The notes beneath the pieces are model-generated. The model was not told where the DNA came from. It worked only from the letters and a program-made list of their open reading frames with translations, and searched no databases. A stretch of 64,000 bases of DNA from assembly GCA_040753795.1 (NCBI GenBank), contig JBFMDX010000013.1:1-64000 (forward strand), in the 5' to 3' direction. Origin of the DNA: Thermodesulfobacteriota bacterium. Its GTDB lineage: Bacteria > Desulfobacterota > Desulfobacteria > Desulfobacterales > Desulfosudaceae. A program made the translations under genes and the position numbers. Position 1 is the stretch's first letter, and every line of letters begins with the position of its first letter. Below, in pieces: positions 1 to 46,532 of this stretch.

Positions 1-976
1 TGCAGGTATTAAACCAGAACTGGCGGAAGGAGCCATGGGCCCCGGTGTTGTCGGGATTGAAATAAAAACTGGACAGGGACCAGTACTGATCCATGATCGG
101 ATCCCGCTGGACCTGAAAACAGGTCTGCCGCACCAGCGGCATGACGGCGTTATTGAGCCGGGCCATTTCAGCGTTCAGCCAGCCGCTGCTCACCAGGGGC
201 CGGGCCGAAGCATAACCGTAAAGATTGTTGGAGCCGATCACGAATCGCCGTAACTGCTGACGGGACGTGCCCCAGTGATCAAACTCCGCCCTCAACACCA
301 GACCGTAAATCCGCAAGGGGTATTCGGCGGAAAGCCCGGTTTTCATGGCCTCCCAGTTGATGTCCCACTGAGTTTCAGGATAATGGGTGGCCAGGTAGGA
401 CCCGAAGTTCTGCCAGGGGGCGTTGGTGGACTGCAGATAGGCGGATGTGCCCAGATCGAGGGTGCCGGAGCCGGTGCCCATGTAACGGTCATGAATCCGG
501 TCGACCCGGTTGGTATTGGTCATGTAGGGGTTATCGGTCCCGGTACCCGTGTAACTTGCATTAATTTGACTCCCCCCACCCCTCGGGCCGGCGCGGTCTT
601 GCGGACCGAAAACCATGGTGTAGTTGGAGTCCATGGAGGCCATGTCCCCCAGTTCGGCCACCGAGCGGGGGTAGTCCCCCATTTTGAGGGCACCGACTTC
701 TCCGTATGCTTCCAGGTAAATATCGCTGGCAAACCGGACCACGGTAACGGAGGTGGTGGAGCTGTAATAGTTCGGGTCGCTGATGGCCAGTTCACACATT
801 TTGCCGCCTTCCAGCTCACCCATTTCATGATTGGTCATGACGTCCATACCGGCCATACCGGGTAACGGCATAAATGTCGCCAGCAGCAACAGGAGCATTA
901 TCCGAAAGGTCATCTCTAGCCGGACCTTGAATCCGAAACGAATCATCTCCCGCCATCGTACAGCGTGATCGATCAT
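1..976 (-). CDS. Secreted DUF6160/FilA-like protein (partial, runs off left edge)
   Basis: This reading frame is open from an ATG at 976 to the window edge, about 325 codons without a stop. The ATG is preceded by AGGTG with 7-nt spacing. Residues 1-43 form a long basic n-region, a leucine core and a PGMAG end, which reads as a Sec signal peptide. Immediately after it comes M-T-N-H-E-M-G-E-L-E-G-G, the same segment seen in the small secreted proteins at 37-39 kb and a good match to a double-glycine leader. The rest is rich in Tyr, Asn, Ser and Trp, without a domain I recognise. It is probably an exported substrate of the 36.8-46.5 kb secretion locus, placed at the far end of the glycosyltransferase array. 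The family name rests on the N-terminal motif only; the frame and the signal peptide are secure. Confidence 0.7.
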   Translation of the reverse strand, partial: MIDHAVRWREMIRFGFKVRLEMTFRIMLLLLLATFMPLPGMAGMDVMTNHEMGELEGGKMCELAISDPNYYSSTTSVTVVRFASDIYLEAYGEVGALKMGDYPRSVAELGDMASMDSNYTMVFGPQDRAGPRGGGSQINASYTGTGTDNPYMTNTNRVDRIHDRYMGTGSGTLDLGTSAYLQSTNAPWQNFGSYLATHYPETQWDINWEAMKTGLSAEYPLRIYGLVLRAEFDHWGTSRQQLRRFVIGSNNLYGYASARPLVSSGWLNAEMARLNNAVMPLVRQTCFQVQRDPIMDQYWSLSSFYFNPDNTGAHGSFRQFWFNTC

Positions 977-1001
977 AATCAAGCACCTGAATTTGTATCC
1001 G

Positions 1002-33142: not shown

Positions 33143-34160
33143 CAGCGCTACCATTTTTAAAAGAATGAATACGATAAACGCCGGCTCAACAGAAAAGTCC
33201 AGAATCCATTACTGGATCAGGCAGATGATTTCCGCCGGTCTGCTGTTGGCAGCCGGTTTCATTTATTCAAAGCACATTGAGCTGAATGCGGTTAACAATC
33301 TCCTCAAGGGAGCCGATCCGGGCTTGCTTGTCATCGGTTATCTCATCGCCGTAATAGTCGTACTATTGAGGGTTCTCCGCTGGCGCAGCCTTCTTAAAGA
33401 TTTCTTCATCACGACCAAAGGGACCAGCCTCTTTTTAATGTACCTGGTCGATATTTTTCTGAACAATTTTATTTCCGGTCTGTCCATCGCGGTCCGCGGG
33501 CTCTATCTCAAAGAAGAATTCAAAAACTCGGGCCAAATGGTCCGGTTGTTACTGTTGGACAAATTATTTGACTGGGTTATCCCTCTTGGACTCGGCTTCA
33601 TCTCCCTGCTGTTTGTTTTATCGAAGGCAAGCCCTTCTGATATCTGGAAAATATGGGGCGTATTCCTTGTCGTGCTGCCTTGTGCTGTATGGCAACTGCT
33701 TGTCTGGCTTCAGCACGGATTCAGAAACTCCTTTGAAGGCGGAAGGTTTGCTGCGTTGGGCGGCAAAATTCGTTTGTTGGTCTCTGCTGATCCGGGAAAA
33801 TATAACTGCCGCATTTTTGTACGCATGTCGATTTTCTCGATTGCCGCTTTCTCCGCTTACTACATAACGCTTTTTCTGCTGGCGAAATGTTTTTCTCTCC
33901 CGATCCGTCCCGTGGAACTGATCATGGTGGACACCATGGCCACCATCGCCGTCGTCGTTCCATTGAATTTTGCCGGCATCGGTACCAGGGATGTGGCCCT
34001 GACGGGGCTTTTAGCCTATTACGGCTGCCCGCATGAAAATATCGTCCTGTTTATCGCCAGCCTGATTCTGCTCCGCCTGGCGATATCTCTCTTGGGATGG
34101 TTCAGCATGTATATTCTCAAATGGAAGGGCTATTCCATAAAGATAAAAAAGCAGCCATGA
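33135..34160 (+). CDS. UPF0104/LPG_synthase_TM family membrane protein
   Basis: This is about 341 residues from ATG 33135, which overlaps the radical SAM stop; ATG 33165 is an alternative with a weak purine stretch upstream. It has about eight hydrophobic segments and the family signature VVPLNFAGIGTRDVALTG near residue 278 (G-x-G-x-R-D). It is the counterpart of 19144-20082 and probably acts in flipping or making a lipid-linked sugar. It overlaps the start of the eleventh TMTC-like gene by 4 nt, linking the flippase-like and GT-C functions directly. Confidence 0.8.
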   Translation: MADSATIFKRMNTINAGSTEKSRIHYWIRQMISAGLLLAAGFIYSKHIELNAVNNLLKGADPGLLVIGYLIAVIVVLLRVLRWRSLLKDFFITTKGTSLFLMYLVDIFLNNFISGLSIAVRGLYLKEEFKNSGQMVRLLLLDKLFDWVIPLGLGFISLLFVLSKASPSDIWKIWGVFLVVLPCAVWQLLVWLQHGFRNSFEGGRFAALGGKIRLLVSADPGKYNCRIFVRMSIFSIAAFSAYYITLFLLAKCFSLPIRPVELIMVDTMATIAVVVPLNFAGIGTRDVALTGLLAYYGCPHENIVLFIASLILLRLAISLLGWFSMYILKWKGYSIKIKKQP

Positions 34161-36556
34161 ACATTCTATTATCAACAGCCGCTGCCACCCGCCGAATGCT
34201 GCCATCGGCAGCCATCCTGGTCCTCATCGCCCTGCTGGTCTACGCCAACATATCCGACGCGCCCTTCGTGTTTGACGACCGGCTCAACATCACTCAAAAC
34301 ACCCACATCCGGATGACCGCCGTAACTTGTGACAGCATCCTGGACGTGCTCAACAGTCCCGTTCCCACCCGTCCCATGGCCAACCTGACGCTGGCCTTGA
34401 ACTACTATCTCCATGGTTACGACGTGCGGGGCTATCATGCCGTCAACCTGCTCATTCATGTGGTCACGGCCCTGCTGATGTTCCTGGTCGCCAGGCAGAC
34501 GCTGCGACTGTGCGGCGCGGGAAACACGCCCGCGCCACTCATGGCCGCGGCCCTGTGGCTGGTCAACCCCGTCCATACCCAGTCGGTCACCTACACCATC
34601 CAGCGCATGAATTCCCTGGCGGCCATGTTCTTTATGATGTCCCTGTTCCTTTATATCCGGGCTCGAACGGCAGACCGGACCGGACGGGGTCTGATCCGGC
34701 GGGTTCCGCTCTACGTCTTCAGCCTGGCCGCCGGCCTGGCCGGTCTGACTTCCAAGGAGATCGTCGCCGTCCTGCCGGTTATCCTGTTTCTCTATGAATG
34801 GTATTTTTTTCAGAATCGTGACCCGTTCTGGCTGAAACGCCGGCTCCGCTGGATCGGCCTGGCGGCCGTCGCCTGCCTGTTGCCGGCGGCCGTTTTGCTG
34901 GGAACCAGCCCGGTGGACCAGATTCTAAAAGACTATCAGAAACACGATTTCACTCCAGTCCAGCGGCTGTTAACCGAACCGGCCGTGGTGCTCTACTATA
35001 TCAGCCTCCTGTTCTTCCCCCACCCGGACCGGCTGATCCTGCTCTATGACTTTCCCGTCTCCGCCTCTTGCTTTAAGCCCCTGACAACAGCAACGGCCTT
35101 CATGGGCCTCATCGCCCTTGCCCTGTGCGGCCTCCGCCTGTCCGCCAGACACCGGTTGCTGTCCTTCTCTGTTTTCTGGTTTCTGATCACCCTGGTCATC
35201 GAGTCTTCGGTGCTGGGTCTGGCGATAGCGTATGAGCATCGGACCTACCTGCCGTCCATTTTTCCGTTTATTGCCCTGACCGCGCTGGTGACCGCGCCAT
35301 CCCGCACACGCAACATAGCCGTGGCAATTCTCTGCCTTCTCATCGCCGTTTGCGGTTTATGGACCTGGCAACGCAATTCCGCCTGGAACGACGCCGTTCT
35401 GCTCTGGCGCGACAATGTCGCCAAGGCACCTGACGTGGCCGAGGCCGGTAACAATCTGGGCCAGGCCCTCCTGGCCGCGGGCGATACCGAACAGGCGGTG
35501 TCATCCTTTAACACCGCCCTGGCTAAGGACCCGTCCCTTGATTCCGCCCGCGTGAACCTGGGGGTCGCCCTGATGCGTCTGGGCCGGCCCGATCAGGCCA
35601 TAGACCTTTTCCGGACAGCCCTGGAAAACAATCCCCTCAACATCCAGGCCCGATACAACCTGGCCGGTTTGCTGAAAGAGCTGGGCCGGCCGGATGACGC
35701 CATAGCCCAGCTGCGGCAAATCATCGCCCTTGATCCGGTTTGTGTCGAAGCCTTGCTCAATCTGGGAGGACTGCTGCTCGACCGTGGTCAGGAAAAAGAA
35801 GCGCTGGAGTGGCTGGAAAAGGCCGCCGCCCTGAATCCTGGCGATCCGGGAATATCCAACAACCTCGGCATCGCGCTTCACCGTCTGGACAGAATGGATG
35901 AAGCCATCGACATCCTGAAACACGGCCTGTCCCAAAATCCCGACCATCCTGGACTCCACAACAGCCTGGGGCTGGTCCTGCTCGACCGGAACCGGTACGA
36001 AGACGCCTCCCGGGAATTTCAGATGGCGCTGGCGGCCGCGCCCATGATGCCCGAAGCCCACAATAACCTGGGACTGGCGGCCGAAAGACAGGGCGACATC
36101 ATTCAGGCCGTTGGCCACTATCGCCAGGCGCTGGAGCTGGCACCGACCTACCACCTGGCCCGATACAATCTGGCATCGCTGTTTCTGAAAACCGGGCAAT
36201 CGGATAAAGTCATACCCCTGATTGAGGAAAGCACCGACCTGAAGAGGGAAGACGGGGCCATGCTCCGGCATTTGTTAATGGATCTGATTGATGCGCAGAA
36301 ACTGGAAGAGGCCGCGATTCTGGCCGAAAAGATGGCGGCGGCGGAACCGGACAACCCCATGATCCATTATAATCTGGCCTGCCTGTATGCTCGAATGAAC
36401 AACCCGGGAAACGCCATCGACCATCTCAGGAGAGCCGTATCTCTCGGATATGACCATTGGGACCACCTGAGAGCCGATCCTGACCTGAACAACATCCGGA
36501 ATTCGGACTATTTTAAAACCCTGATGCCATTGCTGCCCGCCGAACCGGGGATATGA
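34157..36556 (+). CDS. TMTC-like GT-C glycosyltransferase with long TPR domain (array member 11)
   Basis: This is about 799 residues from ATG 34157, in an ATGA overlap with the UPF0104 gene. Motifs are FVFDDRLNITQNTHIR, NPVHTQSVTYTIQRMN, SKE and EHRTYLPSIFP. The TPR part is the longest of the second half of the array, about eleven 34-residue repeats from residue 425, closing with the end-of-group cap (NLACLYARM...GYDHWDHLRADPDLNNIRNSDYF). It ends the glycan part of the window. A strong hairpin follows its stop, and then the secretion locus begins with its own promoter. Confidence 0.86.
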   Translation: MNILLSTAAATRRMLPSAAILVLIALLVYANISDAPFVFDDRLNITQNTHIRMTAVTCDSILDVLNSPVPTRPMANLTLALNYYLHGYDVRGYHAVNLLIHVVTALLMFLVARQTLRLCGAGNTPAPLMAAALWLVNPVHTQSVTYTIQRMNSLAAMFFMMSLFLYIRARTADRTGRGLIRRVPLYVFSLAAGLAGLTSKEIVAVLPVILFLYEWYFFQNRDPFWLKRRLRWIGLAAVACLLPAAVLLGTSPVDQILKDYQKHDFTPVQRLLTEPAVVLYYISLLFFPHPDRLILLYDFPVSASCFKPLTTATAFMGLIALALCGLRLSARHRLLSFSVFWFLITLVIESSVLGLAIAYEHRTYLPSIFPFIALTALVTAPSRTRNIAVAILCLLIAVCGLWTWQRNSAWNDAVLLWRDNVAKAPDVAEAGNNLGQALLAAGDTEQAVSSFNTALAKDPSLDSARVNLGVALMRLGRPDQAIDLFRTALENNPLNIQARYNLAGLLKELGRPDDAIAQLRQIIALDPVCVEALLNLGGLLLDRGQEKEALEWLEKAAALNPGDPGISNNLGIALHRLDRMDEAIDILKHGLSQNPDHPGLHNSLGLVLLDRNRYEDASREFQMALAAAPMMPEAHNNLGLAAERQGDIIQAVGHYRQALELAPTYHLARYNLASLFLKTGQSDKVIPLIEESTDLKREDGAMLRHLLMDLIDAQKLEEAAILAEKMAAAEPDNPMIHYNLACLYARMNNPGNAIDHLRRAVSLGYDHWDHLRADPDLNNIRNSDYFKTLMPLLPAEPGI

Positions 36557-36788: not shown

Positions 36789-36818
36789 TTGACAGAGAAA
36801 AAATATAAAGGGTAACAT
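36789..36818 (+). promoter_or_regulatory. Candidate sigma70 promoter of the secreted-protein operon
   Basis: TTGACA (36789-36794) is a perfect -35, with an 18-nt spacer to TAACAT (36813-36818). It would give a 5' leader of about 190 nt ahead of the gene at 37014. The stretch 36557-37013 holds no reading frame that looks coding. Confidence 0.5.
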
Positions 36819-36843
36819 AAAAAAGTTTTTTAACGTAAACGGC

Positions 36844-36856
36844 TAAACAGTGTTTA
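36844..36856 (+). promoter_or_regulatory. Perfect TAAACA-G-TGTTTA dyad (operator candidate)
   Basis: This is a 13-bp palindrome with 6-bp arms and a single central base. It overlaps the larger inverted repeat AACGTAAAC (36832-36840) / GTTTACGTT (36852-36860). The identical 13-mer recurs at 40224. It lies 25 nt after the candidate -10. Confidence 0.5.
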
Positions 36857-36859
36857 CGT

Positions 36860-36950
36860 TCGCGAAAGGGGGTGATGCAAAGGGGTAGGAAACCGCTGGC
36901 CCACTGAGCAATATCAAGGTGGGATCTTGCCGGTATGTTTCTGAAAACAG
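36860..36950 (+). promoter_or_regulatory. Structured 5' leader, weak candidate for a c-di-GMP-I-like riboswitch
   Basis: The leader contains CGCGAAAGG, then GGTGATGCAAAGG and a 3' CTTGCCGG, which recall the GNRA loop, GACGCAAAG joint and GGTTGCCG end of GEMM (c-di-GMP-I) aptamers. CCCAC/GTGGG (about 36898-36926) pairs in the middle. However, I cannot build the P1b stem that should enclose the GAAA loop, and GATGCAAAG differs from the consensus C. The leader is clearly structured, but the aptamer call is tentative. Confidence 0.22.
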
Positions 36951-37013
36951 AAACAAAAATCAGTTAGAAGTCAAACAAACCACAGTTGTCTAACCGTTTT
37001 GGAGGAAATTTGA

Positions 37014-37535
37014 ATGAAAAAATTAATCGTTACACTGCTTTTATTAGTGCTTCCGCTATCGGTAATGGCCATGGACGCCGTTACCAACGCCGAGCTCGAC
37101 GGTGTTGCCGGCCAGGCCGGCGTGACCATCGCCTTTGGCGGTAACAGCACCACCGTCATCGACTTTTCCCAGCTTGCCTGGGGTGACCCGGACGGCCTGA
37201 CCGCCTGCAGCAGCACCGCCGGCTGGCTCATCATCAACGGCGTCGTCACCATCACTCAAGTTATCGCCGACGGCCAGCGCCTGGTTCTGGACATCGGCAC
37301 CACCGCCGCTGCTGCTTCTTGTAATGTCGGCGGCGCTGTCTACATTCCGGCCAACGAAACCTTCGTGGCGGTCGGACTGCCTGATGTCACCATGACGATA
37401 ACCGTTCCTTCCACGCTGAACATCGGTCTGGCGGATACTTCCAGCCCCATTGACGGCACTCTCGGCATCCTGAACCTGCGGGGCTTGAGTGTTACGGCCG
37501 GAACTCCGAACTCCCTGTACATCTGGGCGCACTAA
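37014..37535 (+). CDS. Small secreted DUF6160/FilA-like protein, paralogue 1
   Basis: This 173-residue protein has GGAGG 9 nt before its ATG. Residues 1-19 are a Sec signal peptide ending SVMA. The mature chain starts MDAVTNAELDGVAGQAGVTIAF, whose V-T-N-A-E-L-D-G-V-A-G-Q fits a double-glycine leader. The rest is Gly/Ser/Thr/Ala-rich and beta-strand-like, with W-G-D-P-D-G, two Cys (near residues 63 and 102) and the C-terminal LYIWAH. It is about 80% identical to 38280-38807. It is likely an exported filament or surface subunit secreted through the barrel at 41086. Many Ser/Thr could carry O-glycans; that is inference. Confidence 0.8.
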   Translation: MKKLIVTLLLLVLPLSVMAMDAVTNAELDGVAGQAGVTIAFGGNSTTVIDFSQLAWGDPDGLTACSSTAGWLIINGVVTITQVIADGQRLVLDIGTTAAAASCNVGGAVYIPANETFVAVGLPDVTMTITVPSTLNIGLADTSSPIDGTLGILNLRGLSVTAGTPNSLYIWAH

Positions 37536-37597
37536 TTCGACTAAAGGCAGTACGGGGATAATGATGGCCTGAAAATTGTAAGACAGGTTCAGCGTAC

Positions 37598-38233
37598 ATG
37601 GAAAAAGGCAGAAAAAAGAGCGTCGGAAAGAAGTGGATCAAATCGCTGGCCGGAGCGATTCTCTTTTCGGGAATCGCTTTTCAGTGGTGTCCTCCCGGTT
37701 ACGGCATGGATGCCCTGACCTATTCGGAGTTGAATCAAGTCTCCGGAAAGTCCGGCATTAACATAGCGTTTCGTGACGCCGTTACGGTGCAGGCGTCTTT
37801 CCGTTCCCTGAGCCAAGGAGACACGGACGGATGGGGCGGTAAAGCTGCCGTATGGGCCGCCAACCCGGATGACAATCCCGGCTGGATCGTGTTGATCGGC
37901 ACCGGGTCCAACAGCGGTTACTTGCGGACTACCATTCCGGCGAACGCAGTACTGACAGTAGATGTGGCTACCACAGGGGCTTCTACCTGCCAGGTTGCCG
38001 GCGGCGCCCCGTACGCGGGGATCACTGTTCCACCGAACACGCCTTTTTTCTCCTTCAGCCTGACGAAAACCACCATCGGTCTTCAAACACCGTACACGGT
38101 TAATGTCATGATGAGCAACGATGCCACTCTGGCGCCAGGCTCCATGGATATCGTCGGTATAATGCACGCTGAAAACCTGATGATTAATAAGGCCGACATG
38201 AAAAGCACATGTTATATATGGGCCCGTCCCTGA
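37598..38233 (+). CDS. Secreted DUF6160-like protein, divergent member
   Basis: This 211-residue protein has a basic N-terminus and a hydrophobic core (residues 15-36) that form a signal peptide ending PGYG. The motif L-T-Y-S-E-L-N-Q-V-S-G-K (40-51) then replaces that of its neighbours. Q-G-D-T-D-G follows near residue 72, aligned with W-G-D-P-D-G in the flanking genes. The chain ends S-T-C-Y-I-W-A-R-P, so the YIWA end is kept. It sits between two near-identical paralogues, 62 nt after the first. It could be a minor or tip/nucleator subunit, by analogy with FapB beside FapC. Confidence 0.75.
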   Translation: MEKGRKKSVGKKWIKSLAGAILFSGIAFQWCPPGYGMDALTYSELNQVSGKSGINIAFRDAVTVQASFRSLSQGDTDGWGGKAAVWAANPDDNPGWIVLIGTGSNSGYLRTTIPANAVLTVDVATTGASTCQVAGGAPYAGITVPPNTPFFSFSLTKTTIGLQTPYTVNVMMSNDATLAPGSMDIVGIMHAENLMINKADMKSTCYIWARP

Positions 38234-38279
38234 TGCTGCCGACCATTTAAAAACTTTACTGTTTTGGAGGAAAATAATA

Positions 38280-38807
38280 ATGAAGAGATTTGGATTGACT
38301 GTATTGATTATCGCCCTGCTGGCATTGCCCATGTCCGCCCTGGCTCTGGAAAAGATGTCCGGCGGCGACCTCAGCGGTGTCACCGGCCAGGCCGGCGTGA
38401 CCATCGCCTTTGGCGGCAACAGCACCACCACCATCGACTTCTCCCAGCTCGCCTGGGGTGACCCTGACGGTCTGACCGCCTGCAGCAGCACCGCCGGCTG
38501 GATCATCATCAACGGCGCCGTCACCATTGCCCAGTCCATTGCCGACGGCGAGAGACTGGTCCTGGATATCGGCACCACCGGCGCCGCTTCTTGTAACGTC
38601 GCCGGCGCTGTCTACATCCCGGCTTCCGAAACCTTTATCGCGGTCAGCCTGCCCAACACGACCATGGCCATCACCGTTCCGGCTACCCTGAACGTCGGCC
38701 TGGCCGATACTTCAGCCGCCATCGACGGCACCCTCGGCATCCTGAACCTGCGGGGCCTGAGTGTTACCGCCGGCACCCCGGACGCCCTGTACATCTGGGC
38801 TCATTGA
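38280..38807 (+). CDS. Small secreted DUF6160/FilA-like protein, paralogue 2
   Basis: This 175-residue protein has a TTTTGGAGGAAA ribosome site that repeats the one at 37014. The signal peptide (residues 1-22) ends SALA, and M-S-G-G-D-L-S-G-V-T-G-Q follows. From GQAGVTIAFGGNSTT on it matches 37014-37535 almost residue for residue, including W-G-D-P-D-G, both Cys and the C-terminal LYIWAH. Most differences lie in the signal peptide and leader segment, so the mature domain is under stronger constraint or was homogenised. It is probably the second major subunit. A GC-rich hairpin follows the stop. Confidence 0.8.
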   Translation: MKRFGLTVLIIALLALPMSALALEKMSGGDLSGVTGQAGVTIAFGGNSTTTIDFSQLAWGDPDGLTACSSTAGWIIINGAVTIAQSIADGERLVLDIGTTGAASCNVAGAVYIPASETFIAVSLPNTTMAITVPATLNVGLADTSAAIDGTLGILNLRGLSVTAGTPDALYIWAH

Positions 38808-38870
38808 TAACCGGGTCGGATGATGATGGTATTGCTTAAAAGCAATAGCATCAGTTAAAAATTGGATAAT

Positions 38871-38915
38871 CCCCGGGCAGGTGCCTGCGTTGATCATCGC
38901 ATCGCCTGTCCGGGG
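38871..38915 (+). terminator. GC-rich hairpin after the small secreted genes
   Basis: CCCCGGGCAGG (38871-38881) pairs with CCTGTCCGGGG (38905-38915) with one G-U pair, followed by TTTA. A smaller ATTGCTT/AAGCAAT hairpin lies at 38831-38846. The pair may end or attenuate transcription, giving less of the downstream 38942 product. Confidence 0.5.
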
Positions 38916-38941
38916 TTTACCCATATCGGACGTAATGCGCT

Positions 38942-40069
38942 ATGACGTCTTATCATCTAAATAATATATTATCTGTCTTTTCCCGACCGGCGATTTTATC
39001 CTTTCTGATTCTTGCCGCAACCGCTTTCCCTTCCATCGGCGGCACGGTAGCGCCCGAACTGCTTTCCGATACGTGTATCGATGAAATAACGGCCGGCACC
39101 ACTGACAACTGCGTGACCGCTTTTTATGAAACCCCTTCTTCCGCATATATCGACCCCGAGCCCAGCTGGTGGGGAGATATGGACGGCTTTACAAACGAAG
39201 GAGCAGGTTGCGGGTTCAGGCCCGGCTTTGTCGTCACCGATGTTCCCTACATGGATTATCAATATGATACATTTAAATACAGCTTTCAAAGCCAGGCGGA
39301 TGTGGACCGGTTTTTAAAGGCCCTCCCCTCTCTGGGGGGGCTCCCGATCAATGTGATCGGCACTGACTATATCCGGGGCAATCCCAACGCCGGCAACACC
39401 TTTTCCGGAGACGGTTCCGGGCCACGGACCCGGGAAGTCATCATCACCACTGACCAGAAAATAAATGGTGACTTCGTCCGTTCCTATAACGGCGAAGTCA
39501 TTACACAGCCCGTTCGAATTGACCTGGAATTCCTGCCTCCCTATGCGTTAAGTTACACAGAACACAAGGGCGGCGGTAAATACAAAAATGAAAAAACAGT
39601 GCTGCTGGAACGTTCGGCCACATTCAGAAGTTATAACCGGTATGAATGGGTCCAGCGAAGGCCGAGAATGGAAATGGTCCGCAATAGCGATGGCACTTTT
39701 TCCATCATCACTCTCCAGGACACTACCCATAATTTTGGCGCCGTTTTTCTCGAGTCCGGCGCTACCGGAGACGACCCCATCCTGTCCGATTCCGGCCGTA
39801 TCGTTGTCCCTCCCGATACCGTTTACTTGAGAAACACCATATTCAATGACCTTCATATTTCCAGTCCCAGTTTAGCCATGAGTATCGGTCTTGCTCCTAT
39901 GGGACTTCCCGTCGCACCGGGTGAGGTGATCGGGGATCAGACCCATTATCCCGACTTTAACCGATATCAGGAACTCGGCATGATGGATATCCGGGATCTC
40001 GATGTTTTTCTCAAAGGCGGCAACAATATTTACATCTACACCAATGAAGATTTGGATATTTGCCAATAA
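38942..40069 (+). CDS. Large secreted protein of the filament locus (DUF6160-like N-terminus)
   Basis: This 375-residue protein has a signal-peptide-like hydrophobic stretch at residues 14-33. L-S-D-T-C-I-D-E-I-T-A-G (41-52) follows and keeps the L-S-x-x-x-I-x-x-I-x-[GA]-G pattern with Cys for Glu. W-G-D-M-D-G near 80 aligns with the smaller subunits. The body is acidic and Tyr-rich, and the end reads NIYIYTNEDLDICQ, a diverged YIW end. No enzyme motif is visible. It may be an adhesin, a tip protein or a substrate-specific factor. The following 205 nt hold a promoter and the dyad. Confidence 0.7.
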   Translation: MTSYHLNNILSVFSRPAILSFLILAATAFPSIGGTVAPELLSDTCIDEITAGTTDNCVTAFYETPSSAYIDPEPSWWGDMDGFTNEGAGCGFRPGFVVTDVPYMDYQYDTFKYSFQSQADVDRFLKALPSLGGLPINVIGTDYIRGNPNAGNTFSGDGSGPRTREVIITTDQKINGDFVRSYNGEVITQPVRIDLEFLPPYALSYTEHKGGGKYKNEKTVLLERSATFRSYNRYEWVQRRPRMEMVRNSDGTFSIITLQDTTHNFGAVFLESGATGDDPILSDSGRIVVPPDTVYLRNTIFNDLHISSPSLAMSIGLAPMGLPVAPGEVIGDQTHYPDFNRYQELGMMDIRDLDVFLKGGNNIYIYTNEDLDICQ

Positions 40070-40186
40070 GGACTCTTCCCTGATGAACATACTGGTTCCT
40101 CCGGTCCTGTCCGAATCTTATCCCCAACGCCCGCCCGCAGGCCGCAGTTTACTGAGTTCCGGTCCCTTTTTTCCCTTATTTTTTGC

Positions 40187-40215
40187 TTTACAAAACAGGT
40201 TTGATCCTTTATCAT
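40187..40215 (+). promoter_or_regulatory. Strong candidate sigma70 promoter of the secretion operon
   Basis: TTTACA (40187-40192), a 17-nt spacer and TATCAT (40210-40215) match the consensus at 5/6 in each box with ideal spacing. It separates the export machinery (40275 onwards) from the substrate genes as its own transcription unit. Confidence 0.6.
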
Positions 40216-40223
40216 TGTAATGA

Positions 40224-40236
40224 TAAACAGTGTTTA
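40224..40236 (+). promoter_or_regulatory. Perfect TAAACA-G-TGTTTA dyad at the transcription start
   Basis: This 13-mer is identical to the one at 36844. It begins 9 nt after the -10, so it would cover the first transcribed bases. That position suits a repressor or start-site regulator. Confidence 0.55.
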
Positions 40237-40274
40237 TTTGATATTTTTGAAACCGGGGGCAGGGGAATAATTTT

Positions 40275-41057
40275 ATGCATGTACTCATTGCTTTTATAAT
40301 CAGCGCGTCTTTGCTGGCCGGTATTCTTCCTGTCAGGGAAGCGCCGGACAATGAGATCCGCTTTACCGTTGCTCCTGACGATGGAATTATCAGCAACACC
40401 GACAATTACCTGCCTCATGTTTTGCAGCCTGTTGAAATGCGCTTTGAGATGAGAACCGCTAAGGATATCGAGTATTCCCGTATCGTCAGCCAGAAATATG
40501 ATTACAGTTGCGGATCGGCGGCGCTGGCCACCCTGCTCAAATATCATGTGGCAGAAGATTTCGAGGAAGGCCAAATCATTCACGGCCTGTTGAAATACGG
40601 CGACAAGGAGAAAATTATCGAACGGCGGGCGTTCTCCCTGCTGGACATGAAAAGTTTCGTTAACGCCATCGGTTACCAGGGAGTAGGTTACAAGGCTGAA
40701 ATTGACGACCTGGCATCCCTTGACATGCCCTGCATTCTCCCTATGGAACTATATGGTTACCGCCATTTTACCGTTTTCAAGGATATCCGTGAAGGACATG
40801 TCTTTCTGGCCGACCCCTTCCAGGGCAATACCAGTTACCCTGTTGAACAATTCAAGAAGCTCTGGCATCAGAATGTCATTTTCGTGGTTTACCCTTCAGG
40901 TGAAGAACAATTAAAACTGTTGCAACTGAAAAACGACGACCTCCGTTTCATGGATGAAGACCGGACACTGGATATCATGTTCCGTGACCGAATGGTTGAA
41001 ATGGAAAAGATGCCGATTGAAACGGATCCGGACGAAAGACAATATTACAAAAGATAA
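40275..41057 (+). CDS. Periplasmic C39-family peptidase (FapD-like)
   Basis: In this 260-residue protein a hydrophobic N-terminus (residues 1-17) serves as signal peptide or anchor, and AGGGG precedes the ATG. The catalytic Cys lies in Y-D-Y-S-C-G-S-A-A (near residue 78), the His in GYRHFTVF and the Asp in FLADPFQG. This triad order belongs to C39, the double-glycine-leader peptidases. No ABC transporter is fused or nearby, unlike bacteriocin exporters; the same holds for FapD of the Pseudomonas Fap amyloid system. Its likely substrates are the L-[ST]-x-x-E-L-x-x-x-x-G segments of the secreted proteins upstream. Processing itself is inferred. Confidence 0.85.
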   Translation: MHVLIAFIISASLLAGILPVREAPDNEIRFTVAPDDGIISNTDNYLPHVLQPVEMRFEMRTAKDIEYSRIVSQKYDYSCGSAALATLLKYHVAEDFEEGQIIHGLLKYGDKEKIIERRAFSLLDMKSFVNAIGYQGVGYKAEIDDLASLDMPCILPMELYGYRHFTVFKDIREGHVFLADPFQGNTSYPVEQFKKLWHQNVIFVVYPSGEEQLKLLQLKNDDLRFMDEDRTLDIMFRDRMVEMEKMPIETDPDERQYYKR

Positions 41058-41085
41058 ACCGCAATGCTCTTCAGGAGGTAATATT

Positions 41086-42978
41086 TTGAAGGCAAATATC
41101 AAAATAATTCTTGTGGGGGCCCTGTTTCTCCTGGCAGCACTGGCGATCAGCAGCAGCGGGCAGGAAAATCAACCGGACGACAGTGCGACTAAAAAATCCG
41201 ATCCATCGTCTGGATCCGGCTTTACCAGAAGCCTCAACTCCAATGAACTTGACAGGGAAACCGCCGCCGGCCTCAAAAAAGATATGACCAGCGATGAACT
41301 CAATAATGCCAGTGGCGCCGGTCTCAAAAAAGATATGACCAGCGATGAACTCAATCAGACCACCGGTGCCGGTATCAAACATGTGACCTCTCTGGAACTG
41401 TCCATGTCTTCCGGTCGTGGTTTTGGTTCCGACCTTTCTCTGACCGAACTGGAAAACATGGTTGGTTACGGGTTTATCAATAAACTGACGCCCGATGAAA
41501 TAGATAAAATAAACGCCCGGGGAACTCTTTCCGACGAGCAGGCCCGGCTCACGGTAAAAGACCTGGCTGCCATTAACGCCCAGGGTGTTAAATTTATTAT
41601 CGATACATCAAAATTTTCACCCGAAGAAATGGGAGAAATCGAAGGGAGAGGGACCCTGCAGGATATCGGGAAATACCCTTATTCAATTCAGGTAGGTATA
41701 TTCAGAGACAAGGAAAATGCCATTGCCATGCTGGAATCGGTCAAGGCCAGAGGGTATGATCCCTATATCTTCAGGACCAGGGATGAACTCGGGAATGCAA
41801 TCTTCGCGGTTCGCCTGGGAGATTACGAGACGGTCCAGGAAGCCTATGCCGAGGTAACCCATTACATGGGGAAAGAACACAAGGAAGCATTTGTCACCTA
41901 CATCAACTCCACCCAGAGCATACAACGGGAGGATCTGATCAACGAAGAAGAGGATTTCGTCCACTCTGGAAAGGAAGAGAAAGTCGACCTTGACAAAGAG
42001 TATGCCAGTGAAGATCTCCGAACTTTGTATAAGCAGATTCAATCCCTTCAGGGAGAAGTCGAAAAGCTGCGCACTGAATCGGAGGCCAGAAAAAAACTGA
42101 AAATGACGGAGGCTGAACAGCAGCAGGAAGAAGAGGAGATCCTTTCCGCCGCCGGCCGGGAATACGTCCTGTCTCCGGCCAGAACATTAAGTTTTGACTA
42201 CAGTTTCGGATACTCCCATAACAGTTTCGACGAAGCTGAATGGAATGCCCAGCGCATCATCCATACTGCTGATCATACCCTGACCAACACCATCAGCGCC
42301 GCCTACGCTCTTTATGACAACCTTACCCTGGCCACATCCATCCCCTTTAAATATAAATATAATGATATGGGCGCCAGCGGCTCCAAGGATGTCAGTGATA
42401 TCGGCGACGTTTCCTTCAGCGGCAGCTGGCAGCCGACCAAATCTGATCAAAAGATTCCGCCGCTCATTCTCAGCGCCAGCGTCGCCGCACCCACCGGCAG
42501 GGGGCCTTATGAAATCAACCCGGAAATCGATCTTTCCACCGGCGCCGGCCTCTACTCTTTATCTATGGGTGTAAATACCAACAAAAAAATTGATCCGGTT
42601 GTCGCCTACGGAGGATTGGCCTATTCCTATCAATTCAAGGATTCAGGACTGAACTATTACCTGGGTGACGGCAGGGTTCTTGACGAGGTTGAACCCGGAA
42701 GCGGGCTTGGTATGAGCCTGGGGATGGGATATGCCATGTCCTACGCGGCAACCATCAACGCCTCTTTCAGCCTGTCTTACGCCTTTGGAACGAAGTACCA
42801 TTATGAAGACGGCGAATCCTCCGAGACCGATGATACTGTAACCGCCAGCCTCAGCCTGGGTACCGGCTGGCGCTTTTCCGCCAAACGAACGATCAGCTTT
42901 AACGTTGGTCTCGGTCTAACCAATGATGCTTCTGACTTTTCGTTTGCCTTCAGAATTCCTTTTGATTACCAACTGTAA
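41086..42978 (+). CDS. Outer-membrane channel protein with leader-motif repeats, SPOR domain and coiled coil (FapF-like)
   Basis: This is 630 residues from TTG 41086, which has AGGAGG 7 nt upstream. Residues 1-25 are a signal peptide. Residues 45-190 hold about eight repeats of about 17 residues with the pattern L-[ST]-x-x-E-L-x-x-x-x-[GA]-x-G. Residues 197-271 (YSIQVGIFRDKENA...) form a SPOR domain, which binds peptidoglycan. Residues 308-355 form a coiled coil. Residues 362-630 alternate as an outer-membrane barrel and end in Leu after aromatic strands. The coiled-coil-plus-barrel plan is that of FapF; the repeats and SPOR domain are additions. It likely exports the small secreted proteins across the outer membrane. 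Confidence 0.8.
   Translation: MKANIKIILVGALFLLAALAISSSGQENQPDDSATKKSDPSSGSGFTRSLNSNELDRETAAGLKKDMTSDELNNASGAGLKKDMTSDELNQTTGAGIKHVTSLELSMSSGRGFGSDLSLTELENMVGYGFINKLTPDEIDKINARGTLSDEQARLTVKDLAAINAQGVKFIIDTSKFSPEEMGEIEGRGTLQDIGKYPYSIQVGIFRDKENAIAMLESVKARGYDPYIFRTRDELGNAIFAVRLGDYETVQEAYAEVTHYMGKEHKEAFVTYINSTQSIQREDLINEEEDFVHSGKEEKVDLDKEYASEDLRTLYKQIQSLQGEVEKLRTESEARKKLKMTEAEQQQEEEEILSAAGREYVLSPARTLSFDYSFGYSHNSFDEAEWNAQRIIHTADHTLTNTISAAYALYDNLTLATSIPFKYKYNDMGASGSKDVSDIGDVSFSGSWQPTKSDQKIPPLILSASVAAPTGRGPYEINPEIDLSTGAGLYSLSMGVNTNKKIDPVVAYGGLAYSYQFKDSGLNYYLGDGRVLDEVEPGSGLGMSLGMGYAMSYAATINASFSLSYAFGTKYHYEDGESSETDDTVTASLSLGTGWRFSAKRTISFNVGLGLTNDASDFSFAFRIPFDYQL
41218..41649 (+). repeat. Eight in-frame 48-66-bp repeats coding the leader-like motif
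   Basis: The second and third units (41269-41370) are nearly identical at DNA level and encode GLKKDMTSDELN twice. The others are conserved only in protein. Units 1-6 are 16-17 residues, units 7-8 are 21-22. Each keeps Glu/Asp-[Leu/Ile/Met] and ends before a Gly. Confidence 0.85.
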
Positions 42979-42996
42979 AACGGGACAGGAGAATTA

Positions 42997-44790
42997 ATGC
43001 GACCACGACCACAGGCCAAACGGGGATGGTTTTTCTTAATTGCCTGTTTTCTATTAATTACATTTGCCCACGATATCTGCCTGGCAACGTTGTTTGAAGA
43101 CCTGGCTGTCTGCTCCAAGGCAATCTCCCTTGCAAACACCTGCACCGCCTACCCTCCGGATCAGCTATCCATCCATTACAATCCGGCCGGGCTGTCCGAC
43201 CTGCATGACGGCCTTTATTTAAGTCAGGGACTTCTCACCGCTGAATTTGCCATCAAATCAAAATTCAAAGCCGATCCTGATTTCCCGGGTTGGCTGGGTG
43301 GCATTCACTCCGGTTCGCCAGGCGATCCGAATTATTATGATTACCGGCCCCAGGCCGATCCGGTTAATGGACAGAGTGGAACCACCCAGGGTGTCCATTT
43401 GTATATTCCCCTGATGGGTCCCCAGGATATGGATTCCGTCGGCATGCCCACGCCATTCGGCTTTTCCCTGGCCGCCGCTCCCTTCCCCTTCGGTCTGTCT
43501 TACCGAAAACCCAATACCCGCTGGACTTTCGGCTTCGGCGTATACGCGCCGGCCATGGGAGGGTATTACCGGGATGATGATGATCCGGCCCGATACAACG
43601 GTCGTGAGGTTTCCATGCAGCATATAGTTTATGCAGCGCCGGCCGTCAGTTATCAGTTGAGCGATACCGTGTCTGTTGGAGTGACCATGGGCCTCGGACA
43701 GGGCGCCACCCAGCTGGACACGGATATGCGCCTGCCCAACGACATGACGGCACTGACGGAAATAATGGGCATATCCACTCAAGGATTGAATATCCCTATC
43801 ATCTCACAGTTGACCCTGCCCCCCCCCTGGTTCGGGGGTGGTGTGGGCCCCTGGGACGATATCGGCAACCTGGATCTCCAGGTCCGCGATGATTACACGC
43901 CCAATTACAACCTGGGGTTAATGTGGCATCCCAGAAACTGGTTATCGTTCGGTCTGTGCTACAAAAGCGAAGTCAAAATGGAACAGGAAGGGACCTTTCG
44001 ATTCACCTACAGCGAAGAATTTCAGCGGTTTGTCGCCTGGATGGGCAGCTCGCCGCTGCTGCTGGCCGTATCCAATCTGCTGGATCTTCCCTACCGGGCC
44101 ACCCCTTCCCAGAACGGAAGCGTTTATATGAAAGGGATGGACCTGCCGCAACGGCTGGAAGCCGGCGTCATGGTCAGACCTACCCGCAAATTACGGCTGC
44201 TGTGTGACCTTCACTGGATCGATTATTCCAATACAAGAGCATATACAATTCAGTTTGACCAGGACGTTCAGCCGTTGATGATTTCCAAATTCGTGGGGCA
44301 TCTGGATGGAAACGACCGGTTGATACTTGAAATGAACATGAAGGATGAGACCCATGTAAGCCTGGGTGCCGAATACCAATTGCTGGACTGGCTTGCCCTG
44401 CGGTGCGGCTGGGAAGACAGAAAAACTTCCATTGACATGGATTATTTCTCCGTACTGGCGCCGTTGCCGGACACCGATTATTATGGTGTGGGAATGGGAT
44501 TGAATTTCAAGAGCGGATTAAAAGTCGACCTGGCGGCAGGATTTCTCACCGGATCATGGCGGGTACCGAACAACGGCAGTAAAAATTTGAACTCAACTGA
44601 TTTTATAAATTCAGTATATAACCCTTACGGCGGCATGGATGTTTCCGGTAGTATCGATGCCACGATCCTGTCGGCTAACTTTTCCATGCCGTTCAAATAT
44701 CTCTACCGTGTCGGTCAGGTTTTACGAAAGACCGGCCGCGACATCAAAGACCAGATACCATTCCTGAACAAACCAGTTCATCCGGAATAG
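42997..44790 (+). CDS. FadL/OmpP1-family outer-membrane protein
   Basis: This 597-residue protein has a signal peptide (residues 1-30), then the family hallmark IHYNPAGLSDL near residue 63 and a long barrel with many Gly/aromatic strands. Classical FadL imports hydrophobic compounds. Here it lies 18 nt after the FapF-like gene and so may assist export, anchoring or lipid handling of the filament. The coding sequence includes a C9 run at 43819-43827 (Leu-Pro-Pro-Pro-Trp), the longest homopolymer I noticed in the window and a possible slippage switch. It does not end in the usual C-terminal Phe; a cytoplasm-like KTGRDIKDQI tail follows. Confidence 0.8.
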   Translation: MRPRPQAKRGWFFLIACFLLITFAHDICLATLFEDLAVCSKAISLANTCTAYPPDQLSIHYNPAGLSDLHDGLYLSQGLLTAEFAIKSKFKADPDFPGWLGGIHSGSPGDPNYYDYRPQADPVNGQSGTTQGVHLYIPLMGPQDMDSVGMPTPFGFSLAAAPFPFGLSYRKPNTRWTFGFGVYAPAMGGYYRDDDDPARYNGREVSMQHIVYAAPAVSYQLSDTVSVGVTMGLGQGATQLDTDMRLPNDMTALTEIMGISTQGLNIPIISQLTLPPPWFGGGVGPWDDIGNLDLQVRDDYTPNYNLGLMWHPRNWLSFGLCYKSEVKMEQEGTFRFTYSEEFQRFVAWMGSSPLLLAVSNLLDLPYRATPSQNGSVYMKGMDLPQRLEAGVMVRPTRKLRLLCDLHWIDYSNTRAYTIQFDQDVQPLMISKFVGHLDGNDRLILEMNMKDETHVSLGAEYQLLDWLALRCGWEDRKTSIDMDYFSVLAPLPDTDYYGVGMGLNFKSGLKVDLAAGFLTGSWRVPNNGSKNLNSTDFINSVYNPYGGMDVSGSIDATILSANFSMPFKYLYRVGQVLRKTGRDIKDQIPFLNKPVHPE

Positions 44791-44855
44791 CAGTAACCCT
44801 TAAATTTCTTGAAGTGTTTGTTTTTCTGTTTCATCCATCTGAAAGGACAAAAAAA

Positions 44856-46532
44856 ATGAGGCGGTATGTCGTTTTTGCGCTGATTTTACTCCCCCTGCTG
44901 GTATCAGCAAATCCTCAACACTCGGCGGTAAAAGAAACGGTCGTTTCTCTCGGTCACGGCATCAGCGGCGAAGAGATCTATGTAAATTCTCTGAAAATCA
45001 GTTCGAATTTAAAACACATCAGCTATGTGTCCAGAATTGGAAAAACTTTCCGGGTATGGCTTGATGGCGTCTCAAACAAGACTCACGACGGCGTTACCGA
45101 GCAATCTCCTTTTTTTTCTCCCCAAAATAATCGCCTGGCATATATCGCGCAGGAAAATGCTAAAATGTTCGTGGTTATAGACGACCAGGAACATGCCCGT
45201 TACAAATTCGTCGGGACCATCACCTTCAGCCCTGATGGCTCAAGGCTTGCTTACCGGGTGGAAAATGAAAATAAAAAACAGCAGGTGGTTGTCGATGGTC
45301 AACCGGGTCCATTGTTTGATTGGGGAATCACCAAAGAGGTCGGCATCATCTTCAGCCCGGATTCGCAACATATGGCGTATGTGGGAATCAACGATAATAG
45401 CTCTTTTGTTCTTGTTAAGGACAACAAGAAAATGAGCAGTTATGAAAAAATTGAAAATGTTATTTTTTCTCCGGATTCACGGCATATTGCCTATAAGGCC
45501 ATGGAAAAAGGGAAATGGTTTGTAGTGCTGGACGATAAAAAAGGTGCCGCATACAATGAAATCAACGACCTGTTATTCTCTCCTGACGGGAGCCAGCTGG
45601 TCTATTCTGCCATGAAAAACAACCGCCGCCTGATTGTCAAAAACAATGAGGAAATCAGCGAGGGCTCGGGAACGCTTGCCCCGTCATTTTCTCCGGATGG
45701 CAGGCGATTTGCTTATCTGGCGGTAGAGAAGGACAATAAATTCTGTTATGTGGTAGACGGAAAAAAAGAATTATCAATGGATGTACCGGGCCGACTGCTC
45801 TTCAGCAGTGACGGGACCAGCGCGGCCTATGCCGCCGGTATCGAAGGAAAATGGCATATCATTAAAGACGGCATCAGAGGTCCGGCCTTTAAAGAGATCG
45901 AGGCGTTTACCTATGCCAAGGCGACTAATAACATCCTCTATGCGGTCAAAAATGAAGACGGAAAATACAGTGTCATCAAGGATGAAACCGCTGGAAAATT
46001 TTACCATGCCATCGGGACGCCACTCTTCAGTCCCGATGGAAAACAATACGCTTATGCGGCCATGCAGCAGGGCAGTACGGACATGTTCATGGTGATTAAT
46101 AACGTGGAGCAACCCAGCCGATATCCGGTAATTGGGATCCCCGCGGAAGAAAAACCGGGAAAATTCGGATTTGCCTTCCAGCAGCCCTATTTCAGCCCCA
46201 AAGGAAGCCGGATGGTCTTTCCGGTTTATGACCCGGATAAAAAAACCGCTTACATGGTCGTTGACGGAAAACCGCACCCTTCGTTTGAATCCATTATGCA
46301 GCCCATCTTTTCCGATGATGAAAAGCATGTCGCCTATATGGCAAGAAAAGACGGCCGCTGGCGAATGGTGGTGGACGGCGAAGCGGGCATTAACGCTTTC
46401 GATGGCATCATCCGCGGGTCCATTATCGCCTTCGATGCCCGGGAGCGCTGTTTCTTCATCCTGGTTGCCAGCCAGAAGGAATCCGGACTGTCGTTCTTCC
46501 GGCTGGAAGCGAAAATAAACGAACCATCATAA
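44856..46532 (+). CDS. Periplasmic WD40-like (PD40) beta-propeller protein
   Basis: This is about 558 residues from ATG 44856 (AAAGGACA SD); an earlier in-frame ATG at 44814 lacks one. The signal peptide (residues 1-19) ends VSA. At least nine F-S-P-D-[GS]-x-x-x-A-Y motifs spaced about 40-45 residues mark PD40/TolB-like blades. Many blades also carry a V-[VI]-D-[GD] strand. Such propellers bind partners in the periplasm. It is the last gene of the secretion operon, 65 nt after the FadL-like gene, and converges on the thiamine genes. A scaffold or chaperone role for the exported proteins is a guess from context. Confidence 0.82.
   Translation: MRRYVVFALILLPLLVSANPQHSAVKETVVSLGHGISGEEIYVNSLKISSNLKHISYVSRIGKTFRVWLDGVSNKTHDGVTEQSPFFSPQNNRLAYIAQENAKMFVVIDDQEHARYKFVGTITFSPDGSRLAYRVENENKKQQVVVDGQPGPLFDWGITKEVGIIFSPDSQHMAYVGINDNSSFVLVKDNKKMSSYEKIENVIFSPDSRHIAYKAMEKGKWFVVLDDKKGAAYNEINDLLFSPDGSQLVYSAMKNNRRLIVKNNEEISEGSGTLAPSFSPDGRRFAYLAVEKDNKFCYVVDGKKELSMDVPGRLLFSSDGTSAAYAAGIEGKWHIIKDGIRGPAFKEIEAFTYAKATNNILYAVKNEDGKYSVIKDETAGKFYHAIGTPLFSPDGKQYAYAAMQQGSTDMFMVINNVEQPSRYPVIGIPAEEKPGKFGFAFQQPYFSPKGSRMVFPVYDPDKKTAYMVVDGKPHPSFESIMQPIFSDDEKHVAYMARKDGRWRMVVDGEAGINAFDGIIRGSIIAFDARERCFFILVASQKESGLSFFRLEAKINEPS

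Follow-up and report, generated by a model that had tools for sequence, protein, structure and literature searches.

A C39-type leader behind Sec signal peptides as a candidate recognition sequence for the lone peptidase of Fil- and Fap-type loci

What does a C39 peptidase recognize when it has no transporter of its own and its neighbors are proteins exported through Sec? The question is raised by a locus in a Thermodesulfobacteriota genome (family Desulfosudaceae), at positions 37014-44790 of the 64,000 nucleotides of contig JBFMDX010000013.1 that we analyzed (hereafter the window). Genes resembling FilA, FilB, FilC and FilD follow one another there in that order, and FilB is a lone C39 protein of 260 residues in which a Pfam search detects no ATP-binding cassette (ABC) domain. 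A sequence-only reading of the window had noticed that five secreted proteins carry, behind their signal peptides, a segment resembling the double-glycine leaders cut by C39 enzymes. It proposed that the C39 enzyme recognizes this segment and that repeats of the same motif in the channel protein are substrate mimics. Here, we find that C39 enzymes very probably recognize this segment in the periplasm, and that this would hold for Fil and Fap systems beyond the window.

The five proteins (S1 to S5) and their leaders are listed below. Scores in bits, unless a Pfam model is named, come from a leader position matrix trained on leaders of other genomes, with the window and its nearest relative excluded.

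37014..37535, forward strand: S1, secreted DUF6160/FilA-like protein, 173 amino acids (PF19657, 27.8 bits)
37080-37115, forward strand: S1 leader, VTNAELDGVAGQ (24.6 bits)
37598..38233, forward strand: S2, secreted protein, 211 amino acids (A3 leader profile, E 5.5e-5)
37715-37750, forward strand: S2 leader, LTYSELNQVSGK (17.0 bits)
38280..38807, forward strand: S3, secreted DUF6160/FilA-like protein, 175 amino acids (PF19657, 37.6 bits)
38355-38390, forward strand: S3 leader, MSGGDLSGVTGQ (24.8 bits)
38942..40069, forward strand: S4, secreted protein, 375 amino acids (its relative L230|1988 carries LSDKAISQISAG)
39062-39097, forward strand: S4 leader, LSDTCIDEITAG, with Cys at -8, where Glu or Asp is usual (14.5 bits)
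2..982, reverse strand: S5, secreted protein truncated at the contig end (relatives L241, L231 and L255 share the segment)
803-838, reverse strand: S5 leader, MTNHEMGELEGG, a true double glycine (7.0 bits)

In S1-S4, and more weakly in S5, the pattern [LMV]-[ST]-x-x-[ED]-[LM]-x-x-[VI]-x-[GA]-x lies closely behind the Sec signal peptide, and a looser version, L/M/V-[ST]-x-x-[E/D/C]-[L/M/I]-x-x-[V/I/L]-x-[G/A]-x, covers all five. An N-terminal hydrophobic signal precedes the segment in each. In shuffled proteins, segments of at least 14 bits arise with p = 5e-6 and segments of at least 7 bits with p = 3e-4, which makes S5 weak on its own; its relatives from two other genomes score 15.5-15.9 bits and have the GG too. 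The coordinates given in the sequence-only reading check out, and the segment is present as it described, less strongly in S5 than in the others. S1 and S3 are duplicates (DNA identity 81-87%) and pass the Pfam cut-off for DUF6160 (PF19657, 27 bits), whereas S2, S4 and S5 fall below it. An AlphaFold model of S3 from 21 sequences reached a predicted local distance difference test (pLDDT) score of only 57.7, and a PDB search with it gave no match.

Leader proteins are also encoded far from the C39 gene in the same genome. One, of 188 amino acids with the segment ITDAELDKITGQ, lies on contig C12 (L248:1054-1620). On contig C10 (L255), a paralogue of S5 is followed by a protein with LSTTDMGGVTGM.

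Beyond the window, we sampled 31 regions from other members of the phylum, together with another 80 FilB loci (Desulfobacterota, Pseudomonas, Marinobacter, Acinetobacter, Massilia and others). In all, 177 Sec proteins, encoded in 83 loci, have the segment directly after the hydrophobic core of the signal. Position -7 is L, M or I and position -2 is G or A in all 177; position -12 is L, M, I or V in 172, -10 is D or E in 159, -4 is V or I in 152 and -8 is E or D in 118. A cryo-EM study of PCAT1 gives the consensus of C39 leaders as L(-12)xxxE(-8)L(-7)xxxxG(-2)G(-1), in which residues -10 to -4 are helical, -7 and -12 form a hydrophobic knot and -4 confers specificity (PMC6959990). The spacing of our segment is exactly that of C39 leaders, with matches at -12, -8, -7, -4 and -2 and a mismatch only at -1. 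Even there, some members, such as VPEEELGEVRGGY, LSDTELAGVSGGG and S5, have a true GG. The mature parts behind the leader form 18 clusters unrelated by BLAST, which argues that the segment is a portable signal.

The likeness to double-glycine leaders is nearly exclusive. When 54 leader 20-mers were compared with 18950 NCBIfam models, only FilA and seven double-glycine peptide families were matched (bacteriocin_sig TIGR01847, lactococcin G-beta, cerein 7B, lacticin 481, BlpC, mersacidin and the bacteriocin-like LSEI_2386). Single matches are weak (best E 0.008), and 54 shuffled 20-mers gave none. With Pfam, the leaders matched DUF6160 (27 members), Lactococcin, ComC, Bacteriocin_IIc and type-A lantibiotic, along with three unrelated single families. 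Unlike classical double-glycine leaders, which stand at the extreme N-terminus, lack a Sec signal and are read in the cytosol, this one lies behind a Sec-type signal. We found no published description of such a Sec-following C39-type leader in a search that mostly did not extend to subscription journals and preprints.

DUF6160 and FilB occur together. Across 395 genomes of the phylum, the Pfam model for DUF6160 finds a match in all 18 whose FilB scores 170 bits or more, but in just 4 of the 377 others (Fisher p 1e-27). Up to 12 DUF6160 matches occur per genome, mostly distant from the peptidase gene. This bears on 48 FilB loci with no leader gene nearby, which we considered as counter-evidence and then set aside: we tested 36 FilB genomes, drawn mainly from these loci, in which no leader gene was apparent in the 6 kb around FilB, and every one has DUF6160 elsewhere, in 1 to 12 copies. 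In a genome without FilB, one DUF6160 gene (G369:C5:86458-86679) has an in-frame TGA and may represent decay after loss of the peptidase.

The enzyme itself has the features expected of a leader peptidase.

40275..41057, forward strand: lone C39 peptidase, FilB/FapD-type, 260 amino acids (PF03412, 65 bits; NF050078 FilB, 200 bits; NF058616 FapD, 125 bits)
40479-40886, forward strand: its C39 domain

Residues Q73, C79, H164 and D180 are invariant in 22 of 22 aligned relatives, and K126, a conceivable partner of the acidic -10 residue seen in 159 of the 177 leaders, is conserved in 21. The predicted structure (core pLDDT >90) best matches C39 leader peptidases, among them LahT with bound leader (6mpz; template modeling score 0.81 by target length), PCAT1 and ComA. 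By this model, FilB has a C39 leader-peptidase fold with an intact Gln-Cys-His-Asp active site. We place it in the periplasm, perhaps tethered to the membrane, because the related FapD is periplasmic (PMC5557850) and because the leader lies behind a Sec signal.

Several of its relatives are unusual. In two FilB homologues of about 500 residues (L048:9516-11027 and L049:8913-10436), the C39 domain is followed by a very long insert of low-complexity GNGYGNG sequence. Another peptidase (L041:6458-7213) has a leader-like stretch, IPKDEISLNIGG, near its own N-terminus (residues ~23-34), of which relatives keep P-x-x-E-[IML]; it might be an autoinhibitory segment. Elsewhere, a single FilB is followed by a tandem pair of FilC-type channels (L040:7054-9296).

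The Fap system offers an independent view. Its FapD has been known since 2017 as an essential periplasmic C39 protease of amyloid secretion in Pseudomonas. Replacing the essential Cys38 of FapD (C38A) abolishes secretion (Rouse et al. 2017, PMC5557850). The authors found the target of FapD unclear, with no canonical C39 sequence in the Fap proteins, and reviews of 2018 and 2025 still describe the substrate as undetermined or presumed. We examined three genuine fap operons, in which FapD and FapE exceed the NCBIfam cut-offs, and found that in all three the signal peptide of FapE is directly followed by the leader (ELKDQELAQLRGK, ELKDAEMAQLRGR and ELSDQELSQLRGR). FapE is also the sole Fap protein whose N-terminus was found to be completely processed, in that its first ~70 residues yielded no peptides (PMC5557850). 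FapA contains a similar internal segment (9.5-16.3 bits). The full leader was not found in FapC or FapF (<6 bits) or in FapB, where it is at most partial and lacks the G/A; at this score, FapF itself was ruled out as a leader carrier. Independent comparative evidence thus lends good support to the proposal that the C39 enzyme recognizes the segment: its anchors are conserved over 18 mature families, its likeness is almost confined to double-glycine families, DUF6160 and FilB co-occur, the peptidase has the right fold with an intact triad, and FapE carries the segment.

In the mechanism that we favor, Sec would export a cargo precursor with two consecutive N-terminal signals, and signal peptidase would then expose the double-glycine-like leader. 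FilB, periplasmic and probably tethered, would bind the leader helix via -12, -8, -7 and -4 and cut at or beside G/A(-2)-x(-1). Once cut, the mature protein would be licensed either to pass through the FapF-like channel or to assemble there. We consider it likely that cargo with a Sec signal and a C39-type leader is recognized and cut by FilB for this channel. Recognition is placed in the periplasm because the segment sits behind a Sec signal; this placement, the cleavage, the scissile bond and the exit of cargo via the channel are what we infer from the comparisons above.

Several observations weigh against this mechanism. Position -1, where known C39 enzymes need Gly or Ala, is Gln in 110 of the 177 leaders, Arg in 26, Gly in 14, Glu in 10, Ala in 7 and Ser in 4, and conservation runs on past the site (G-V-[ST]-I). 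FilB has a short, weakly charged N-terminal hydrophobic stretch with no distinct charged n-region, so that its export is presumed. The four genomes with DUF6160 have no FilB even at E 1e-5, a result that led us to reject assembly breaks as the reason. In the Fap system, the peptide gap of FapE exceeds the leader in length, and FapA, despite its internal leader-like segment, gave peptides throughout (PMC5557850). Two counts that favor the mechanism carry less weight. Up to 6 kb from FilB, the motif occurs in 116 of 375 proteins with a signal peptide (6.5 expected from shuffles), and farther off in 10 of 199, as judged by a regular expression tuned on the same loci after looking; the NCBIfam likeness and the coupling of DUF6160 to FilB weigh more because this pattern was chosen post hoc. 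Similarly, the A3 leader profile finds matches (E <0.05) in 6 of 6 FilB genomes of the order and 0 of 10 genomes without FilB, but it includes leaders from some of the FilB genomes tested, so only its negatives are independent.

Some of these points would suit a segment that is retained as a structural element of a large fibre-protein family such as DUF6160, for instance an N-terminal cap or oligomerisation helix, with a coincidental or ancestral likeness to C39 leaders. Conservation beyond the site, the prevalence of Gln at -1 and the four genomes without FilB all fit such an element. It is harder to reconcile with a segment common to 18 unrelated mature clusters, with NCBIfam matches that beyond FilA are all double-glycine peptides and that vanish on shuffling, with the FilB coupling over 395 genomes and with the copies that have a true GG, and we regard it as improbable. 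FilB might instead bind the leader without cutting, as a docking chaperone in the manner of the C39-like domains of haemolysin-type exporters. Catalytically dead C39-like chaperone domains do exist (PMC5557850), and the residue at -1 is usually not Gly. However, none of the 22 relatives departs from the active-site Gln, Cys, His and Asp, and the FapD C38A mutation abolishes secretion (PMC5557850); we regard a FilB that does not cut as improbable too. Recognition and cleavage by a periplasmic FilB is the reading that we carry forward.

Does the channel take part in this recognition? Its gene adjoins that of the peptidase.

41086..42978, forward strand: outer-membrane channel, FilC/FapF-type, 630 amino acids, TTG start (NF050079 FilC, 205 bits; NF058560 FapF, 71-72 bits)
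41233..41649, forward strand: eight leader-like repeats at its N-terminus
41674..41853, forward strand: its SPOR (peptidoglycan-binding) domain (PF05036, 36 bits)

The start is most likely the TTG at 41086, preceded by AGGAGGT; that of the longer open reading frame (40954) is less likely. The protein consists of a signal peptide, the repeat array, the SPOR domain, a coiled coil and a barrel that matches solved FapF (PDB 5o65-5o68, E 3e-13). Eight leader-like units, starting at residues 49, 66, 83, 99, 116, 133, 154 and 176, score 6.7-14.2 bits with a matrix naive to the repeats, while in 2000 shuffles of the region such units numbered 0.17 on average and never more than 3. The repeats seen in the sequence-only reading, about eight in number, are thus real. 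Their period is ~17 residues and then 21-22, and within the array a 51-bp tandem repeat of recent origin spans 41260-41379. All eight keep -12, -8, -7 and -2; the hydrophobic -4 residue is lost in the first four and kept as M or I in the last four. Single units weakly match double-glycine peptide families.

The array is rare. In L033, which is the nearest relative and belongs to the same family, the channel has five repeats, four of them of at least 13.9 bits, with a bacterial SH3 domain in front, and no other channel among the ~100 FilC/FapF proteins examined has any. When 389 genomes of the order were searched, the repeat region turned up in three, all from a single family. It occurs there in the two channels and in two small secreted proteins that stand alone (L224:9127-9627 and L225:9178-9603). 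Each of the latter consists mainly of such repeats and is followed by a PilZ-type gene (Pfam PilZ in L224), and their last units, 3-4, lack the leader pattern; the window's genome has the channel version only. Because of this distribution, the repeats are a lineage-specific addition rather than a general part of the machinery. At position -10, where the four leaders of genome G001 all read Asp, the five repeats of its channel read N, Q, P, T and P, so no co-variation is visible, with two channels to compare.

The role proposed for the repeats, which would mimic the substrate in order to dock the peptidase or else to gate the pore, is speculative. The repeats exist and keep most anchors, but just 2 of ~100 channels have them. 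Retention of -12, -8, -7 and -2 makes docking of peptidase or cargo plausible, and the simplest view, of tethering sites that hold either partner at the channel in this one family, gets somewhat less than even odds from us. We come closer to an even judgment on a family-specific helical domain with its own function, its leader likeness convergent or left over from an ancestral duplication of the leader, and with no peptidase binding. Restriction to one family (3 of 389 genomes), stand-alone versions beside a PilZ gene whose units 3-4 have lost the pattern, and recently copied repeats without the -4 residue all speak for such a domain. The anchors kept in eight units, the weak matches of single units to double-glycine families and the position of the array in a channel encoded beside the C39 gene speak against it. 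A further idea, that FilB cuts the repeats and that processing of this periplasmic arm opens or closes the pore, would follow the published suggestion that FapD may cut the FapF linker (PMC5557850; PMC12822426). It is unlikely, given that genuine FapF linkers and ~100 other FilC/FapF channels lack such a segment and that eight cut sites would be redundant. The most encompassing claim, in which a widespread Sec-plus-C39-leader sorting signal is read by lone FilB/FapD enzymes and the channel of this family displays eight pseudo-leaders that capture peptidase or cargo, seems doubtful to us as a whole.

The SPOR domain, and the SH3 domain in L033, suggest from their sequences that FapF/FilC channels of this kind are anchored to peptidoglycan. 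SPOR was tested with Pfam in the window channel and L033 only; by sequence likeness, several other Desulfobacterota channels (L038, L041, L064, L066, L067, L068 and L071) appear to bear it, without the repeats, and it was not seen in the gammaproteobacterial channels examined.

Two further genes follow the channel.

42997..44790, forward strand: FilD-like outer-membrane barrel of the FadL/OmpP1 family (NF050080 FilD, 299 bits; PF03349, 136 bits)
44814..46532, forward strand: secreted WD40-like (PD40) beta-propeller, kept behind FilD in L033, L034, L035, L036, L039, L040, L041 and L045

The leader genes are flanked by a mostly tandem set of eleven genes, at 1166-28573 and 34097-36556, for large membrane proteins that have TPR repeats at the C-terminus; Pfam confirmed TPR in four of the eleven. 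We take these proteins to resemble TMTC/PMT-type glycosyltransferases. Similar genes adjoin leader genes in a related genome as well (L230, L241), and because of this proximity the cargo may be glycosylated.

Taken together, the gene content identifies the locus as a Fil/Fap-type outer-membrane export system, a relative of the Acinetobacter Fil family and not a member of it. All four genes fall under the curated NCBIfam cut-offs for FilA, FilB, FilC and FilD (29-40, 200, 205 and 299 bits against 220, 475, 630 and 970), as do the FapD and FapF matches (125 against 330 and 71-72 against 700), and FapA, FapB, FapC and FapE gave no match among the window proteins tested at E up to 1. The leader would supply a concrete candidate recognition sequence for FapD and FilB, in FapE, FilA and DUF6160 proteins. 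If this is true, it accounts for a Pfam family of unknown function and links two surface-fibre systems. It would also serve as a sequence flag for locating dispersed cargo genes far from the peptidase gene.

Among known systems, the Acinetobacter Fil locus (NCBIfam FilA-FilD, 'putative pilus system') has the same A-B-C-D order of DUF6160 protein, C39 enzyme, FapF-like channel and FadL-like barrel. The window differs from it in that there are several cargo genes, the channel bears a SPOR domain and a repeat array, FilD is followed by a PD40 propeller, and the scores all lie under the Acinetobacter-specific cut-offs. With Pseudomonas Fap (FapA-F), it shares a periplasmic lone C39 enzyme and a channel of the trimeric-barrel type, and FapE has the same leader; unlike Fap, it has DUF6160-like cargo, no recognized FapB or FapC amyloid subunits, and FapD and FapF only as relatives. 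With PCAT1, LahT, ComA and double-glycine peptides, it has in common the C39 fold, the triad and the leader anchors -12, -8, -7, -4 and -2. Unlike the peptidase-containing ABC transporters, its C39 enzyme has no ABC transporter, its cargo proteins are large and -1 is usually Gln; and because its leader lies behind a Sec signal, leader and enzyme would meet in the periplasm, unlike in PCAT-type systems.

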